Assembly (NCBI GenBank): GCA_008375315.1
Contig: CP032507.1
Coordinates: 2,665,001 to 2,729,000, forward strand
Direction of reading: 5' to 3'
DNA from: Ectothiorhodospiraceae bacterium BW-2
GTDB lineage: Bacteria > Pseudomonadota > Gammaproteobacteria > Thiohalomonadales > Thiohalomonadaceae
Length of the DNA: 64,000 nt
In this document: one piece after another, positions 55,636 to 61,382 of the stretch
How positions within the stretch are numbered: the stretch's first letter is position 1
How the letters are laid out: each line of letters begins with the position of its first letter
Made by a program: the position numbers and the translations under genes
Notes under the pieces: generated by a model
Told to the model about the DNA's origin: nothing
The model's input: only the letters and a program-made list of their open reading frames with translations
The model's database searches: none

Positions 55636-55875
55636 ATGTCTGAACAACTTACTCAACTCTCAAAACTTAAACCGGGGCAGCGGGGGCAGATTAGCGCCGT
55701 TGAGGGCGAGAAGGAGCTGCGCAGTCGCCTTGCCGCGATGGGGTTTCGCAAAGGGGCGAAGGTATCGGTAGGTCATAGCGCTCTGTTTGGTGATCCGCGT
55801 ACCTATACGCTCGGTAGTTCCCACATCAGTCTGCGCAACAGCGAGGCGCAACATGTTCAAATTCAACTCAGCTAG
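55636..55875 (+). CDS. feoA: FeoA, ferrous iron transport accessory protein
   Basis: The 79-residue SH3-like protein has LSKLKPGQRGQI, SRLAAMGFRKGAKV and a final strand HVQIQL, all FeoA hallmarks. ATG at 55636 is preceded by AGGAGGGG; an upstream TTG at 55597 is in frame but has no ribosome site. It begins a feoAB-mamC-mamO-mamP run and so likely feeds iron to magnetosomes. Confidence 0.92.
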   Translation: MSEQLTQLSKLKPGQRGQISAVEGEKELRSRLAAMGFRKGAKVSVGHSALFGDPRTYTLGSSHISLRNSEAQHVQIQLS

Positions 55876-55887
55876 AGAGGCACACAC

Positions 55888-58059
55888 ATGGAGAGCAGTA
55901 CGACTAAGGGAACGCTACGGGTTGCGATGGTCGGCAACCCTAATACCGGACGCACCACCCTTTTTAATCGGCTGACCGGTGCCTCAGCTTCGACCGGTAA
56001 CTACCCCCGAGTGACTGTTAATATCGAATCGCGCCATATTCAGTATCAAGGTTGGGATATAGAGCTGATTGATCTACCGGGAATTAACTCTCTAAGCTGC
56101 CGTACCGATGAGGAGCTAGCCGCGCGCCAGTTTCTGTTCGAAGAGCCGCTTGATCTGATTCTCAATGTTATCGATATGGGTAATATGGAGCGCAATCTGC
56201 TGCTCACCTCCCAACTCATTGAGATGGGTATTCCCCGTATCTACGCTCTGAATCTTAAATCGGAGGCGGCCCATAAAGGGGTGCGTATCGATACGACGGC
56301 GATGACTAAGATTCTCAACGGGCCGGTGGTAGAGATTGAGGGGCGTACCGGTGATGGTATCGAGACGCTGCTCAATGCGCTAACGAGTTGCGCCGATGCC
56401 GGTTGTCAAAACTGTAGCGTGGAGGCGTGTCGCGGCGGCAGCGTCAAAATTGGCTACGATGATCATCTGGAGGAGGCGATTGAGCGTATCGATGCCGCTA
56501 TCGCTCGTCTCCACCCTAATGTGATGGATAGCTCTCAGTCGCGCTGGCTGGCGATTAAGCTGCTGGAGGGGGATAACACCCTGCTAAAGCAGGAGCAGGA
56601 GCATCGTGAGTTAATGGCCATGGTGGCTAATGAGCGGCAGCTACTGGAGGAGCAGCACGGCGAAGATGCCGAAATTATGCTCAATGATGGCCGCTACGGC
56701 TTTGTGAACGGACTATTGAAAGAGGTCAGCGAGCTCGATCTGGATGTTGCCCTAAATCGGATCGATGTCACGCGGGTGATCGATTCGGTACTGCTGCACC
56801 GCTACTTGGGGCTGCCGCTGTTCTTTTTTGTGATGTGGGTGATGTTTGAGGCGACATTTACTCTCGGCACCTACCCGATGGAGTGGATCGATGCGTTGGT
56901 CGGTTGGGTGAGTGCTGGCGTCGGTGCCATCCTGCCAGAAAGTCTCTTTAGAGATATGATGGTCGATGGGATTTTGGCCGGTGTCGGTGGGACGATTATC
57001 TTTTTGCCTAATATCGTGATTCTGTTCTTCTTTATCGCCTTTTTAAGTGAGTCGGGCTATCTGGCTCGTTCGGCGTTTCTTATCGATAGAGTGATGCACA
57101 GCTTCGGACTCCACGGTAAAGCCTTTATTCCGATGATTACCGGATTTGGCTGTAATGTACCGGCGATTATGGCCACCCGAACGATTGAAAATCGTAAAGA
57201 TAGGCTGGTGGCGATGCTGGTCACCCCCTTTATGAGCTGTTCGGCAAGGCTGCCGGTCTTTATCCTCTTTAGTAGCGCCTTTTTTACCGAAAATGCCGGT
57301 GTGGTGCTGTTCGGGCTCTATAGTGCCAGTATTGTATTGGCGTTGCTGGTGGCGGTTGTGTTAAGTAAAACGGTGGTGAAGGGGGCGAATAGCGCCCCAC
57401 TACTGATGGAGCTCCCCCCCTACCGTAAGCCGACCTATCAATCCATTATGATCCACATGGGCTCGAATGCGCTGGAGTTTCTGAAAAAGGTGGGGGGGAT
57501 TATCGTTATCGGCTCGGTGATTATCTGGTTTTTAGAGACCTTCCCCCAAAATGTCCCGTTAAGTCAGGATTATGAGGCGCAAATTGTTCAGCTACAGAGT
57601 CAGTCGGCGAGTGAAGCTATCGAACAGCAGATTAACACGCTGCAGCAGCAGCAGCAGGCGGAGATCTATCACAACCGCTATTTAGGCCAGATAGGTCGGG
57701 TCGTTGAGCCGATTTTTGCACCACTAGGTTTTGATCTTAACGCCTCGATAGCACTGTTAACCGGCTTTGTCGCCAAAGAGGTGATTGTCGCTACCTTTGG
57801 GGTGCTTAATGCGAAGGGGGGAGAGGTCACCGAATCCGATGAGGGGTTAAGGGAGTCGATTGCCCAGTCGATGGATCCGGTATCAGCTATCGCTTTTATG
57901 GTCTTTGTGCTGCTCTATATGCCCTGTTTTGCGACTTTGGCGATTCTCTATCGCGAAACAGCCTCACTGCGCTGGACGCTCTTCTCGGTGGGGATGTCGA
58001 TGGGGATCGCCTATCTGCTGGCGCTCTCGATTAGTGTTATTGGCGGACTCTATCTGTAG
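55888..58059 (+). CDS. feoB: FeoB, ferrous iron transporter with a deviating G domain
   Basis: The 723-residue protein has the FeoB layout: N-terminal G domain, helical GDI-like part and two Gate regions with membrane helices (GTIIFLPNIVILFFFIAFL, FGCNVPAIMATRTI, FVAKEVIVATFGVL). G2 (T43, NYPRVTV) and G3 (D62, DLPG) are normal. G1 is GNPNTGRTT, with Arg22 in place of the invariant Lys, and G4 is NLKS (122-125), with Ser125 in place of the Asp that gives guanine specificity. Nucleotide binding is probably changed or lost. It is placed directly before mamC, so a magnetosome-linked iron carrier is the natural reading. Confidence 0.95.
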   Translation: MESSTTKGTLRVAMVGNPNTGRTTLFNRLTGASASTGNYPRVTVNIESRHIQYQGWDIELIDLPGINSLSCRTDEELAARQFLFEEPLDLILNVIDMGNMERNLLLTSQLIEMGIPRIYALNLKSEAAHKGVRIDTTAMTKILNGPVVEIEGRTGDGIETLLNALTSCADAGCQNCSVEACRGGSVKIGYDDHLEEAIERIDAAIARLHPNVMDSSQSRWLAIKLLEGDNTLLKQEQEHRELMAMVANERQLLEEQHGEDAEIMLNDGRYGFVNGLLKEVSELDLDVALNRIDVTRVIDSVLLHRYLGLPLFFFVMWVMFEATFTLGTYPMEWIDALVGWVSAGVGAILPESLFRDMMVDGILAGVGGTIIFLPNIVILFFFIAFLSESGYLARSAFLIDRVMHSFGLHGKAFIPMITGFGCNVPAIMATRTIENRKDRLVAMLVTPFMSCSARLPVFILFSSAFFTENAGVVLFGLYSASIVLALLVAVVLSKTVVKGANSAPLLMELPPYRKPTYQSIMIHMGSNALEFLKKVGGIIVIGSVIIWFLETFPQNVPLSQDYEAQIVQLQSQSASEAIEQQINTLQQQQQAEIYHNRYLGQIGRVVEPIFAPLGFDLNASIALLTGFVAKEVIVATFGVLNAKGGEVTESDEGLRESIAQSMDPVSAIAFMVFVLLYMPCFATLAILYRETASLRWTLFSVGMSMGIAYLLALSISVIGGLYL

Positions 58060-58154: not shown

Positions 58155-58208
58155 CGGTGGTATAGCTTGGCTCTACTGCGATTTTGTGATTTTTTCAGGA
58201 GTATAGTA

Positions 58209-58595
58209 ATGAATTTAGCAACCTATTTGGCTTCAAGCACCAGTGGTATTGGTGTTTTTGGTGCGCTGGTGGGAGGCGCGGGTGCTGCGGCTAAGAATAT
58301 TAAAGATAGTCGTGATGGCTTGGTAACACCGGTTGAAGCGGTGGTGGATACCTCTAAAGAGGCCGCAGGCGCTGGCGTGGCGACTGTTGTGAGTGCCGTT
58401 AGTGTCGGTGCTGCCGGGGTGGGGCTTGGCGCTTCGCTTGGCATTGCGGCAGTGACGGCTATCGGGGCTAAATATCTTTGGGATCGCTCCATGGAGCAGA
58501 TCGAGAGTCGCTTCTTTAAGGGCGATATGGATCAGCTCGATCATATTGTGGCTAGCAGTGCCGATGAGGCGACTCGAAAAGGGCTGTCACTGTAA
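58209..58595 (+). CDS. mamC: Magnetosome protein MamC (Mms13)
   Basis: The 128-residue protein matches MamC in length and plan: N-terminal APYLA-like start (NLATYLASSTSGIGVFGALVGG in pieces), helix 1, a loop AKNIKDSRDGLVTPVEAVVDT with charged residues, helix 2 (AAGAGVATVVSAVSVGAAG) and a final AKYLWDRSMEQIESR. The loop between the helices faces magnetite in known MamC and affects crystal size. ATG 58209 follows AGGAG; the earlier start at 58167 is not supported. Confidence 0.92.
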   Translation: MNLATYLASSTSGIGVFGALVGGAGAAAKNIKDSRDGLVTPVEAVVDTSKEAAGAGVATVVSAVSVGAAGVGLGASLGIAAVTAIGAKYLWDRSMEQIESRFFKGDMDQLDHIVASSADEATRKGLSL

Positions 58596-58616: not shown

Positions 58617-60563
58617 ATGGATTCCCACTCGCTACTAGCCCCTAATCGACTCATCTTTTGTGAAAAGCGCTGGCAGCTAATCGCCTTTCTGCTTGCCGCT
58701 GCCGTGCTGCTCACCTTTTTTTGGGCCTTCTTTATTCTGGCCCACTATCTTGAGGAGTACAATATAGAGGACTACTCCATCAATATGGTCGATGGGGGGA
58801 TGGGGGGAATGGTCAATATGGCCAACCGTTCGTCGATGTCGCTACAGGCGCTGGTCACGCCGGCGGTGGTGACGCTGGTGCGCCAAGATACCCCTAATAT
58901 GCCACTCGCTTCGGGGGTGATTGTCCATCCGGAGGGGTTTATCCTTACCACCGCCCACTCTATCGATAAGATCGCTCGGATAGGGGTATTGGTACAGGCG
59001 GCAGATGGGGTTAAACGCTATAAGACCGAGGTGGTGAAAACCCACAAAACCCACGATTTGGCGCTGTTAAAAATTGTCACCAATGATAAGTTTCTGTTTC
59101 TTAAACTGGCGGATACGACTCAACTGACGGCCAATACCCAGCTACACGCTTTCGGTAAGAGCGCTAATGGAGTAGTCATGGCGCGCTCCGGTGTGCTACA
59201 GCAGCATGGCGTTAGCTTAACGGTGGGGCGGCAGACTATCTCTCATCTATTAACCACCACAGTCCCCTTTGTAGCTCAGCACTCTGGTGGGCCGATGGTT
59301 ACCGAGAAGGCGCGTCTAGCTGGAGTGAATATTGTCGTGCAGCAGGGGGAGGGATTGGCAGGTTATACGATTCCCTCTCATGTGATTGTGGCTCACTTTA
59401 GTGATGTGTTGACCTTTCATGGCCTCAACCGACCGGTGCAGTCGAAGGTTGATCCTGCGCTACCTCAAGCGGATACTAACGGGGTCGCGGCTGCTTGGTG
59501 GCAACAGGCACGAGAACAGGAGGCGGCACCGGAGCAGCTACTCAATCGGGCGCTCAATCCCGACTTAGCGGCGATGAATGTGGCAGCTGCTGATAGTAAG
59601 CAGGTCGATAAAAATGCCCAAGTTAACCATATCGGCTCGGCAGGCGATGAGGTCACTCTGCTGGATCTGGAGCAGGAGAGCAGCTTTGAGCTTTGGGGTT
59701 ATAAACTTGATGCCATGTTTGCCCTCTCTCTGCTCGGCGTTGCCGGCGGTATGTTAGGGGCGTTGATGCCGATGGGTGGGAGTCTGCTGGTAGTGACCGG
59801 CATGATGATGCTATTCGGTTATGGCCTCTATATGATTCGTCCGGCTATCTATGTGGTTAATCTCTTTACCTATGGTATTTCGGCGCACCACTACTGGAAG
59901 CGAGGACTGGTGATGCGGGAGCGACTGCTACCGCTGCTGCCGTGGATTCTGTTTGGCGTGGTTATCGGCTTCTTTATCGGGCACCACCTGTTTGATCATG
60001 TGGTCGGGATTATGTTAGGGGGGTTTGCGCTGGTGTTGGCCGCCCTCGCGCTCTACGATACCTACAATCGCTGCCCCCCTCAGCAGCCGGTAGTTGAGCT
60101 GCCAGACAGCAGTCGTGAGGCGAAGCTCGAACAGTTTATCAATAGCTCCGGTCTGACCACAGAGCGGGAGCAGCAACAGCGAGGTACTTGGCTAGATCAC
60201 GCTATTATGGGGGGGCCGATGGGGCTGCTGACCGGTATCCTGAGTGTCGGTGGCGGCATTACCGAAGAGCACTACCAGCGCCGTCACGAGGGGCTGGCCA
60301 AAGAGAATGCGGTCGCTAATACGGTAGTGATGGTCTTTGTCGCCTCCTTAGTTGCCGCTTTGGTCTCTTTTAGCTATGGCAGCAGTATTGGTGCCTTCTC
60401 TTGGCAGACGCCGCTAACGCTGGCGATGATCTTAATCCCCTCTACCTATGCCGGGGCGCTGCTGGGCGTGCGCTGGTTTGGAGGGATCCCGCGTGAGATT
60501 CAGCGTTGGCTCTTCGCTTTGATTATGGTAATGATTGCGTTAACGATGTTCTTTGCGCAGTAG
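58617..60563 (+). CDS. mamO: Magnetosome protein MamO: trypsin-like domain fused to TauE/SafE-like transporter
   Basis: The 648-residue protein has one N-terminal helix (20-42), a trypsin/HtrA-like domain (about 75-265) and after a linker a TauE/SafE domain with about eight helices (360-648). His114 (TTAH), Asp147 (HDLALL) and Ser223 (HSGGP) form a complete triad; the adjacent His146 matches the metal-binding His known from Magnetospirillum MamO, where the Ser position is Thr and the protease is inactive. MamO is needed for magnetite nucleation. It starts 21 bp after mamC and ends 3 bp before mamP. Confidence 0.93.
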   Translation: MDSHSLLAPNRLIFCEKRWQLIAFLLAAAVLLTFFWAFFILAHYLEEYNIEDYSINMVDGGMGGMVNMANRSSMSLQALVTPAVVTLVRQDTPNMPLASGVIVHPEGFILTTAHSIDKIARIGVLVQAADGVKRYKTEVVKTHKTHDLALLKIVTNDKFLFLKLADTTQLTANTQLHAFGKSANGVVMARSGVLQQHGVSLTVGRQTISHLLTTTVPFVAQHSGGPMVTEKARLAGVNIVVQQGEGLAGYTIPSHVIVAHFSDVLTFHGLNRPVQSKVDPALPQADTNGVAAAWWQQAREQEAAPEQLLNRALNPDLAAMNVAAADSKQVDKNAQVNHIGSAGDEVTLLDLEQESSFELWGYKLDAMFALSLLGVAGGMLGALMPMGGSLLVVTGMMMLFGYGLYMIRPAIYVVNLFTYGISAHHYWKRGLVMRERLLPLLPWILFGVVIGFFIGHHLFDHVVGIMLGGFALVLAALALYDTYNRCPPQQPVVELPDSSREAKLEQFINSSGLTTEREQQQRGTWLDHAIMGGPMGLLTGILSVGGGITEEHYQRRHEGLAKENAVANTVVMVFVASLVAALVSFSYGSSIGAFSWQTPLTLAMILIPSTYAGALLGVRWFGGIPREIQRWLFALIMVMIALTMFFAQ

Positions 60564-60566
60564 TCT

Positions 60567-61382
60567 ATGGGATTAAGCCGTCACTATCGCTATCCTATCG
60601 GCAGGCTCGGGGTAGCTCTGCTGCTACTGCTAGCCCACTCGCTCTTTGCCGATGAAGATGGTCCGGCGAATGGGGGCGCTGGTAATGGTCAGGGGGTACG
60701 GCTCCATCCGACCAATCAGGAGATCGTCAATATCGCCCCCCCCGGCAGCGGTATCTTTATGGCGCGGGATATCGCCCTCTATGAGGGGCACTGGCAGGGG
60801 ATGGATGTGATGCTGCTTGATGCCGAGCTACGGCAAAAATTGCTCTACCCTAAAGGGCTAAAAGGGGTGATTATTAATGAAGTGACCCTAAATGCTGCGC
60901 TATCGGGGATGTTGGGGGGCGATATTATTATTGCGATTGAGGGGGAACGGGTTCTCTCTTTAGAGGATTTTAAGCACCTGACCTATCAGTATCGTCAGCG
61001 AAACCATGTCGCGGTGACCGTGTTACGCAAGAGCGAGTTGCAAAATGGTGATCGATTTATTATGAATCGCCATATCTTCATTTTGCGGGCACGCAAAGAG
61101 GTGGGCATGGCGCAGATGGAGTCGGCGCCGATGATTGAGCCAGGCGATCCCCGTCCCCACCCTGATCGCGGCCCCTGCACCCGTTGCCATACTATCGGCG
61201 ATGGCCGTTTTACTATGCCCGATCCCGATCTGATTATTTTACCGCCACCGGCTATCGATCCTATCGATATTCAGCGTAACAATCGTCCCCACAGTGATCG
61301 TGGCCCCTGTATCGCTTGTCACGCTGTCAATGGGCAGCAGCCAGCGACGGTGCCGGTACAGCCCCATATTCGAGCCAATTAG
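60567..61382 (+). CDS. mamP: Magnetosome protein MamP: PDZ plus two magnetochrome haem motifs
   Basis: The 271-residue protein has an N-terminal membrane segment (LGVALLLLLAHSLFA), a PDZ domain (about 85-165, GMLGGDIIIAIEGERV) and two short CxxCH haem-binding magnetochrome motifs, C204-C207-H208 and C248-C251-H252, each after HPDRGPC or HSDRGPC. MamP is a c-type iron oxidase that helps set the Fe(II)/Fe(III) ratio for magnetite. Length equals that of known MamP. Confidence 0.95.
   Translation: MGLSRHYRYPIGRLGVALLLLLAHSLFADEDGPANGGAGNGQGVRLHPTNQEIVNIAPPGSGIFMARDIALYEGHWQGMDVMLLDAELRQKLLYPKGLKGVIINEVTLNAALSGMLGGDIIIAIEGERVLSLEDFKHLTYQYRQRNHVAVTVLRKSELQNGDRFIMNRHIFILRARKEVGMAQMESAPMIEPGDPRPHPDRGPCTRCHTIGDGRFTMPDPDLIILPPPAIDPIDIQRNNRPHSDRGPCIACHAVNGQQPATVPVQPHIRAN

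Follow-up and report, generated by a model that had tools for sequence, protein, structure and literature searches.

How does a FeoB iron transporter work when its G domain lacks two of the residues that usually hold the nucleotide? The question is raised by feoB of Ectothiorhodospiraceae bacterium BW-2, which lies beside magnetosome (mam) genes in a stretch of 64,000 nucleotides (contig CP032507.1, positions 2,665,001 to 2,729,000, forward strand), hereafter called the window. A preliminary description of this DNA had noticed the two substitutions and proposed a FeoB freed from control by guanosine triphosphate (GTP) and specialised for magnetosome iron, perhaps with another FeoB for cell nutrition elsewhere. 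We tentatively favour a different reading, with slightly less than even confidence: judged from its sequence, this would be a working protein and the only FeoB of the cell, its phosphate site rebuilt with arginines and its choice of base relaxed, a promiscuous nucleoside triphosphatase (NTPase) or a weak binder serving both nutrition and magnetosome iron.

Substituted residues in the only detected FeoB

The protein belongs to the FeoB family: over its whole length it exceeds the cut-off of NCBIfam TIGR00437 (315.65 bits; score in Table 1), and it is over the Pfam cut-offs for FeoB_N, FeoB_Cyto, Gate (two stretches) and FeoB_C. Like the FeoBs of Streptococcus thermophilus and Escherichia coli, it carries the G domain, the helical domain, the two Gate stretches and FeoB_C in that order, and it shares with them the pore cysteines (C422, C451 and C680), the G3 motif, the G2 Thr and the K+-site Asn; it differs from them by Arg22, Arg41, Ser125 and Ser387 in place of Lys, Gly, Asp and Glu. 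The G1 motif reads GNPNTGRTT (residues 16-24) where GxxxxGK[ST] is canonical, and the G4 motif reads NLKS (residues 122-125) where NxxD is canonical, exactly as the preliminary description had them in the translated frame. The Ser125 codon, TCG, has no base in common, place for place, with either Asp codon (GAT or GAC), so one misread base could not have produced this substitution. The same description had called G2, G3 and the membrane gates intact. G3 is, with Asp62 and Gly65 retained; for G2 this holds for the Mg-binding Thr43 but not for the switch I Gly, which is Arg41, and for the gates it holds for the three conserved Cys but not for Glu387, which is Ser.

By sequence, S. thermophilus NFeoB (3lx5) is the nearest protein of solved structure. 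In FeoB of this species, the gamma-phosphate (transition-state) mimic is contacted by the Lys14 side chain and by the backbone amides of Gly33, Val34 and Thr35, while Thr15 and Thr35 are Mg2+ ligands (PMC3153494). In our alignment, Lys14 corresponds to Arg22, Thr15 to Thr23, Gly33 to Arg41, Val34 to Val42, Thr35 to Thr43 and Asn11, a residue of the K+ site, to Asn19. Judged from these correspondences, the lineage of the window has exchanged the P-loop Lys for Arg and placed an Arg at the Gly33 site. An AlphaFold2 model of the window FeoB, built from 20 aligned sequences, had a mean predicted local distance difference test score (pLDDT) of 80.9 and a predicted template modelling score (pTM) of 0.59, and its top matches in the PDB were NFeoB structures, such as 7bwv and 3ss8.

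The genome, 99.73% complete, consists of a single contig of 4,074,140 bases, with feoB at 2,720,888. A profile search for FeoB_C (PF07664), which was positive in seven of 14 control genomes, gave a single match, the window gene. FeoB_N gave ten; the other nine were rejected as a second FeoB, being frames of 224-907 amino acids without a FeoB_C match; they resemble other P-loop GTPases, presumably ones such as Der and Era. With these two profiles, in a search confined to FeoB and not extended to other iron importers, no second FeoB was found, and the window FeoB is the only one detected in the cell. The second, canonical feoB that the preliminary description had in mind did not appear.

Relatives and the order of the substitutions

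We compared the protein with a census of 186 FeoB or FeoB-like rows, some of them fragments. Rows were fetched by similarity to the window protein or from MamC-positive genomes, so the counts are not population frequencies. A contig scan retained the best 80 of 264 relatives, and additional genome searches supplied further rows; four of 190 rows were removed as repeats by their last 120 residues, other repeats having been removed on entry, and two FeoBs, the fragmented one of genome G002 and a split one of G399, hold two rows each. Position 22 is Lys in 175 rows and Arg in eight (gap in three); position 41 is Gly in 135, Arg in 45 and another residue in three (gap in three); position 125 is Asp in 180, Lys in three and Ser in one (gap in two). 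Arg22 and Ser125 occur together in the window protein only.

Six FeoBs from named gammaproteobacterial bins (L011, L012, L013, L014, L015 and L024), 60-64% identical to that of the window, combine Arg22 and Arg41 with the G4 Asp, and their switch I reads NYPRVTV, NYARVTV or NYARVTI; the seventh relative with Arg22 is L142, an N-terminal piece from G002. All seven retain Asp125, and N19, G21, T/S23, G37, N38, T43, D62, G65 and N122 are common to all eight Arg22 sequences. Within these eight rows, the window stands alone in the loss of Asp125 and in Leu123 for Met, and shares Asn67 for Tyr with L142 only; at position 152, in G5, it has Gly, and the others have Ala (five), Gly (one) or Ser (one). 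Mutation of Tyr58 of S. thermophilus FeoB, the equivalent of Tyr67, left nucleotide association and release unaffected (PMC3153494).

A tree was built from 45 of 164 rows with positions 22, 36, 41 and 125 masked; L142, a fragment, fills 37% of its columns. All 26 Arg41 rows form one clade (support 100/98), and Arg41 is found in none of the other 19 rows. The clade is one of Pseudomonadota, comprising gammaproteobacterial rows and other Pseudomonadota, some of them Magnetococcales bins. Nested within it is a gammaproteobacterial clade of nine rows (100/98), in which L230 from G258 (Lys22, Val36, Arg41) stands against eight rows with Arg22 and Thr36 (100/99). The window falls into a four-row subclade with L011, L024 and L142 (100/99), within which its exact placement is weak (85/33). 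One change each is required on this tree for Arg41, for Arg22, for the loss of Glu387 and for the loss of Asp125. The substitutions arose in nested steps: Arg41 together with the loss of Glu387, then Arg22, then Ser125 in the window only. By comparison with these rows, Ser125 is the sole one of them private to the window and the part that is still special there, and Arg22 appears to mark a remodelling of the switch across the lineage, not a second, magnet-only iron pump.

Among the rows with Gly or Arg at position 41 (six of the 186 have neither and were left out), an 85% rule separates the two groups at three positions, 41, 387 and 481. At position 387, the 45 Arg41 rows have Ser (40), Asn (three) or Ile (one) and Glu in none of the 44 with a residue there, whereas Gly41 rows have Glu in 135 of 135; at position 481, Ser is found in 44 Arg41 rows, and Gly41 rows have Gly (120), Ser (six), Thr (six) or Asn (one). 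Two divergent FeoB-like rows in which position 41 is Gln or Leu retain Glu387; of the two pieces of the split G399 FeoB, one carries His41 and the other Ser387. The switch I Gly to Arg change and the membrane Glu change are thereby nominated as two candidates for coupling. A bolder account would have the clade use a different FeoB switch, with Arg41 next to the gamma-phosphate in the role of an internal arginine finger and in functional coupling with the loss of Glu387, the G-domain switch and the membrane gate communicating through this charge pair; the window protein would then have dropped the P-loop Lys and guanine recognition to become an any-NTP FeoB. This account seems to us improbable. 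As Arg41 and the loss of Glu387 are one event each on the tree, coupling is not demonstrated by repetition.

Other departures from the canonical motifs were seen in the census. Lys replaces the G4 Asp (NMNK), with the P-loop Lys retained, in L087 and L088 (Methanobrevibacter) and in L068 (an unclassified archaeon). L097 (G041) and L227 (G195) come from two related gammaproteobacterial genomes whose MamB is over cut-off, and both have Asp for the G2 Thr (VRFPGADV); G041 has one FeoB_C match. The divergent FeoB-like rows L117, L118, L119, L121, L232 and L233, 24-27% identical, have DLPS or similar for DLPG and no G2 Thr. Among the matches listed from the open-licence PMC literature, no title or abstract opening dealt with these residues in magnetotactic FeoB.

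Readings of the altered G domain

In the reading that we favour, the path would have begun with the switch I change to Arg41 while the membrane Glu387 was lost, continued at the P-loop with Lys to Arg22 together with Val36 to Thr, and ended, in the window's species alone, with the guanine-reading Asp turned into Ser125. Arg22 and Arg41 could jointly still hold and neutralise the phosphates; Arg41, at the site where Gly33 contacts the gamma-phosphate mimic, may serve as a built-in arginine finger; and the loss of Asp125 would relax the choice of base, leaving a promiscuous NTPase or a weak binder in continued control of the Fe2+ pore. It would then not be a second pump dedicated to magnetosomes. 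Since one FeoB_C match was found in every Arg22 genome (eight of eight), a cell whose protein was inactive would have no FeoB. The reading also draws on the retention of the other phosphate, Mg and K-site positions checked in the Arg22 sequences, on the lack of window-specific relaxation in the G domain (see below) and on the single change per substitution on the tree.

A possible parallel for the relaxed base choice is the FeoB of Vibrio cholerae, although it retains the P-loop Lys that the window FeoB has lost. It hydrolyses several NTPs, and some FeoBs are described as NTP-promiscuous, with base choice set by G5 residues and, by proposal, also by the G4 Asp (PMC11406355). The window FeoB shares with V. 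cholerae NFeoB a departure in the base-reading G4/G5 region and, on sequence grounds, may work like it; V. cholerae, however, keeps the G4 Asp (Asp122) that the window lacks (PMC11406355). The ATPase SpoIVA belongs to the TRAFAC GTPase class, and losing the G4 Asp is one of the steps by which it was proposed to have come to prefer ATP with function retained; SpoIVA and the window FeoB are alike in this loss from a TRAFAC P-loop domain, but SpoIVA is not a transporter and is described as retaining G1-G3 (PMC7952092). A natural FeoB without the P-loop Lys and, in one species, without the guanine-reading Asp, yet the sole FeoB found, offers a ready test of the need for GTP.

Several points weigh against this reading. 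Replacement of the P-loop Lys by Arg is usually damaging to NTPases. The predicted model is ligand-free, and because switch I residues 37-42 have pLDDT below 50, no side-chain geometry is claimed for the arginines. The sole FeoB is not the sole iron importer: other iron uptake systems lay outside the search, so an inactive FeoB is possible in the cell. Each of the seven further Arg22 genomes either is a bin in several contigs or comes without a completeness figure, and a second FeoB could be missed in them. The G4 NxxD is stated to be required for GTP hydrolysis (PMC11406355); D123N FeoB of E. coli fails to rescue Fe2+ uptake (PMC8980893), and the GTPase of D123N FeoB of Pseudomonas aeruginosa is not stimulated by Fe2+ (PMC4847171), so Ser125 may simply abolish nucleotide use.

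The same D123N defects, in uptake (E. coli) or in Fe2+ stimulation (P. aeruginosa), speak for a reading close to the idea of the preliminary description, namely that with Lys22 and Asp125 gone the protein is a pseudo-GTPase that neither binds nor hydrolyses nucleotide, an Fe2+ channel ungated or gated by FeoA that would supply iron constitutively. Both classical contacts are missing, feoAB stand in an apparent operon with mamC, mamO and mamP, and other FeoBs with lost G-motif residues exist (e.g., Thr43 of G2 is Asp in G041 and G195). We nevertheless consider a pseudo-GTPase rather unlikely: the other catalytic positions checked are retained in all eight Arg22 sequences, which speaks against a dead domain, Asp125 is kept by the seven Arg22 relatives, and the G domain of the window diverges no faster than those of its sisters. 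The window protein shares on average 55.9% of its G-domain residues and 66.6% of its membrane-part residues with clade members, a ratio of 0.84 (0.81-0.92 in six sisters), and by this ratio no window-specific relaxation of the G domain was seen. Of the positions that are at least 92% conserved among the remaining Arg41 rows of the tree, 37 lie in the G domain and 130 in the membrane part; the window protein deviates at four of the former and four of the latter, the six sisters at 0 to 5 and 0 to 7, respectively. By these measures, the G domain of the window is not decaying faster than that of its kin.

Neutral drift, with FeoB becoming dispensable in the window's species and Ser125 as the onset of decay, is very improbable in our view. 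Ser125 and Leu123 are indeed private to the window in the Arg22 clade, and Asn67 is shared only with L142. Yet the frame of 723 codons is intact in an apparent operon, the end branch (0.38) is shorter than those of L011 (0.53) and of L024 and L142 in the same subclade (0.49 plus 0.06-0.08), there is no excess change in the G domain, and the two FeoB profiles revealed no second FeoB. The protein could instead still be specific for GTP, with Arg22 and Arg41 replacing the charge of the Lys and a neighbouring side chain (e.g., Glu126) or G5 taking over guanine recognition. The seven Arg22 relatives that keep Asp125 presumably use GTP, and in the window Asn122 is retained and Glu126 adjoins Ser125. 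Retained GTP specificity is distinctly unlikely, given that, of the 184 census rows not gapped at position 125, 180 have Asp and that no FeoB reading guanine without the G4 Asp is described in the excerpts of PMC11406355 and PMC8980893.

Genomic setting and magnetosome genes

The genes feoA, feoB, mamC, mamO and mamP follow one another in the same direction, their frames separated by 12, 107, 21 and 3 bases (Table 1), and feoAB with the three mam genes have an apparent operon-like layout. About 8 kb beyond mamP lies mamM (at 2,734,105), followed by a second mamO, mamA, mamQ, mamB, mamS and mamT, and later by mamE; MamM, MamB and MamQ of this downstream group are over cut-off, and MamO, MamA, MamS, MamT and MamE are best matches below cut-off. 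The position of feoB next to mamC, mamO and mamP, upstream of the main mam genes, is thus as the preliminary description had said. Of the magnetosome specialisation proposed there, the placement in a magnetosome region stands; set against it, this is the only FeoB found, and Arg22 is common to relatives without mam markers.

Table 1. Genes and substituted codons of the feoAB-mam region (numbering of the window)
Feature	Position	Strand	Remarks
feoA	55636..55875	+	79 amino acids from ATG 55636, AGGAGG just upstream; open frame from TTG 55597; Pfam FeoA PF04023, E 1.6e-19
feoB	55888..58059	+	723 amino acids, ATG start; sole gene of the genome with a FeoB_C match; TIGR00437 579.1 bits
Arg22 codon CGC	55951..55953	+	replaces G1/P-loop Lys
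Arg41 codon CGA	56008..56010	+	replaces switch I Gly (aligned with Gly33 of S. thermophilus FeoB)
Ser125 codon TCG	56260..56262	+	replaces G4 Asp
Ser387 codon	57046..57048	+	replaces membrane-domain Glu found in 135 of 135 Gly41 FeoB rows
mamC	58167..58595	+	NF038051 135.8 bits, over cut-off 100; frame from TTG 58167, in-frame Met 14 codons later
mamO	58617..60563	+	NCBIfam MamO 506.7 bits, below cut-off 800, best match; Pfam Trypsin_2 and TauE
mamP	60567..61382	+	NCBIfam MamP 274.9 bits, below cut-off 300, best match; Pfam PDZ_2 and MCR (magnetochrome)

Pairs of feoAB beside mam genes are known as feoABm and are listed among seven conserved clusters of magnetotactic Pseudomonadota (PMC9840458), and extra FeoB copies occur in many magnetotactic bacteria (PMC3840617). 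The window shows the same adjacency as feoABm and as FeoB1 of Magnetospirillum gryphiswaldense (PMC9840458, PMC3840617). It differs in that its FeoB is the only one found and not an extra copy, although an extra copy, being described for many such bacteria (PMC3840617), is not strictly required. It differs also in its closest kin, whose genomes lack both MamC and an over-cut-off MamB. In Magnetococcales genomes, FeoB_C matches numbered two in G059, two in G060 and three in G061.

MamC is found in five of the eight Arg22 genomes (G000, G004, G012, G057 and G058) and not in G002, G011 and G056; MamB over cut-off splits them identically, giving five with both markers and three with neither, the latter including the nearest kin of the window in the tree. 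The stated completeness of the marker-negative genomes is 82% for G002 and 92% for G011, both draft bins, and none is stated for G056. As three of eight lack MamC and MamB over cut-off, Arg22 is not tied to magnetosomes, and it was rejected as a magnetosome trait; in the same three genomes, no Pfam-recognisable mam genes occur among the feoAB neighbours examined. This calls for caution, since the nearest relatives are without the searched mam markers and odd residues in a mam-linked gene need not be a magnetosome adaptation.

Arg41 was likewise rejected as magnetosome-specific: besides the window's genome, a 398-genome phylum sample has it in 10 genomes with MamC and in at least 16 without, with MamC as the sole marker for most genomes in this comparison. 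The presence of mam markers needs eight changes on the tree (35 labelled rows). A test of Arg41 against mam markers by independent pairs yielded one pair only; either MamC or an over-cut-off MamB sufficed to label a genome positive (for G060 and G543, MamC alone). MamP is a weak marker, with weak matches in 10 of 14 control genomes, and only its strong scores are informative (G000, G004, G041, G058 and G059).

Among the relatives, feoAB of L015 lie within a mam cluster, with mamM, part of a MamO, mamQ, mamB, mamS and mamT before feoA and mamM, mamO and mamA after feoB, several of them below cut-offs, and L012 has MamO-like and MamP-like frames upstream. By Pfam, no recognisable mam genes were found among the feoAB neighbours examined in L011, L013, L014, L018 and L024, although the genomes of L013 and L014 carry MamB and MamC. 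The window holds no Fur box at up to three mismatches from the E. coli consensus, and its promoter- and terminator-like sites are within the range of shuffles.

Some minor observations concern mam genes and FeoB in this and other genomes. In G515, the divergent row L232 lies on the same contig as mamC. On contig C15 of G399, a MamC-positive genome, a second FeoB is split over two frames (L242 and L284), either a broken gene or an assembly error; another FeoB of G399 lies about 3 kb from mamC. Roughly 6 kb beyond the end of the window, from 2,735,055 on (L166:19056 into L167), the second mamO of the window's genome stands beside mamM as one frame of 630 amino acids.

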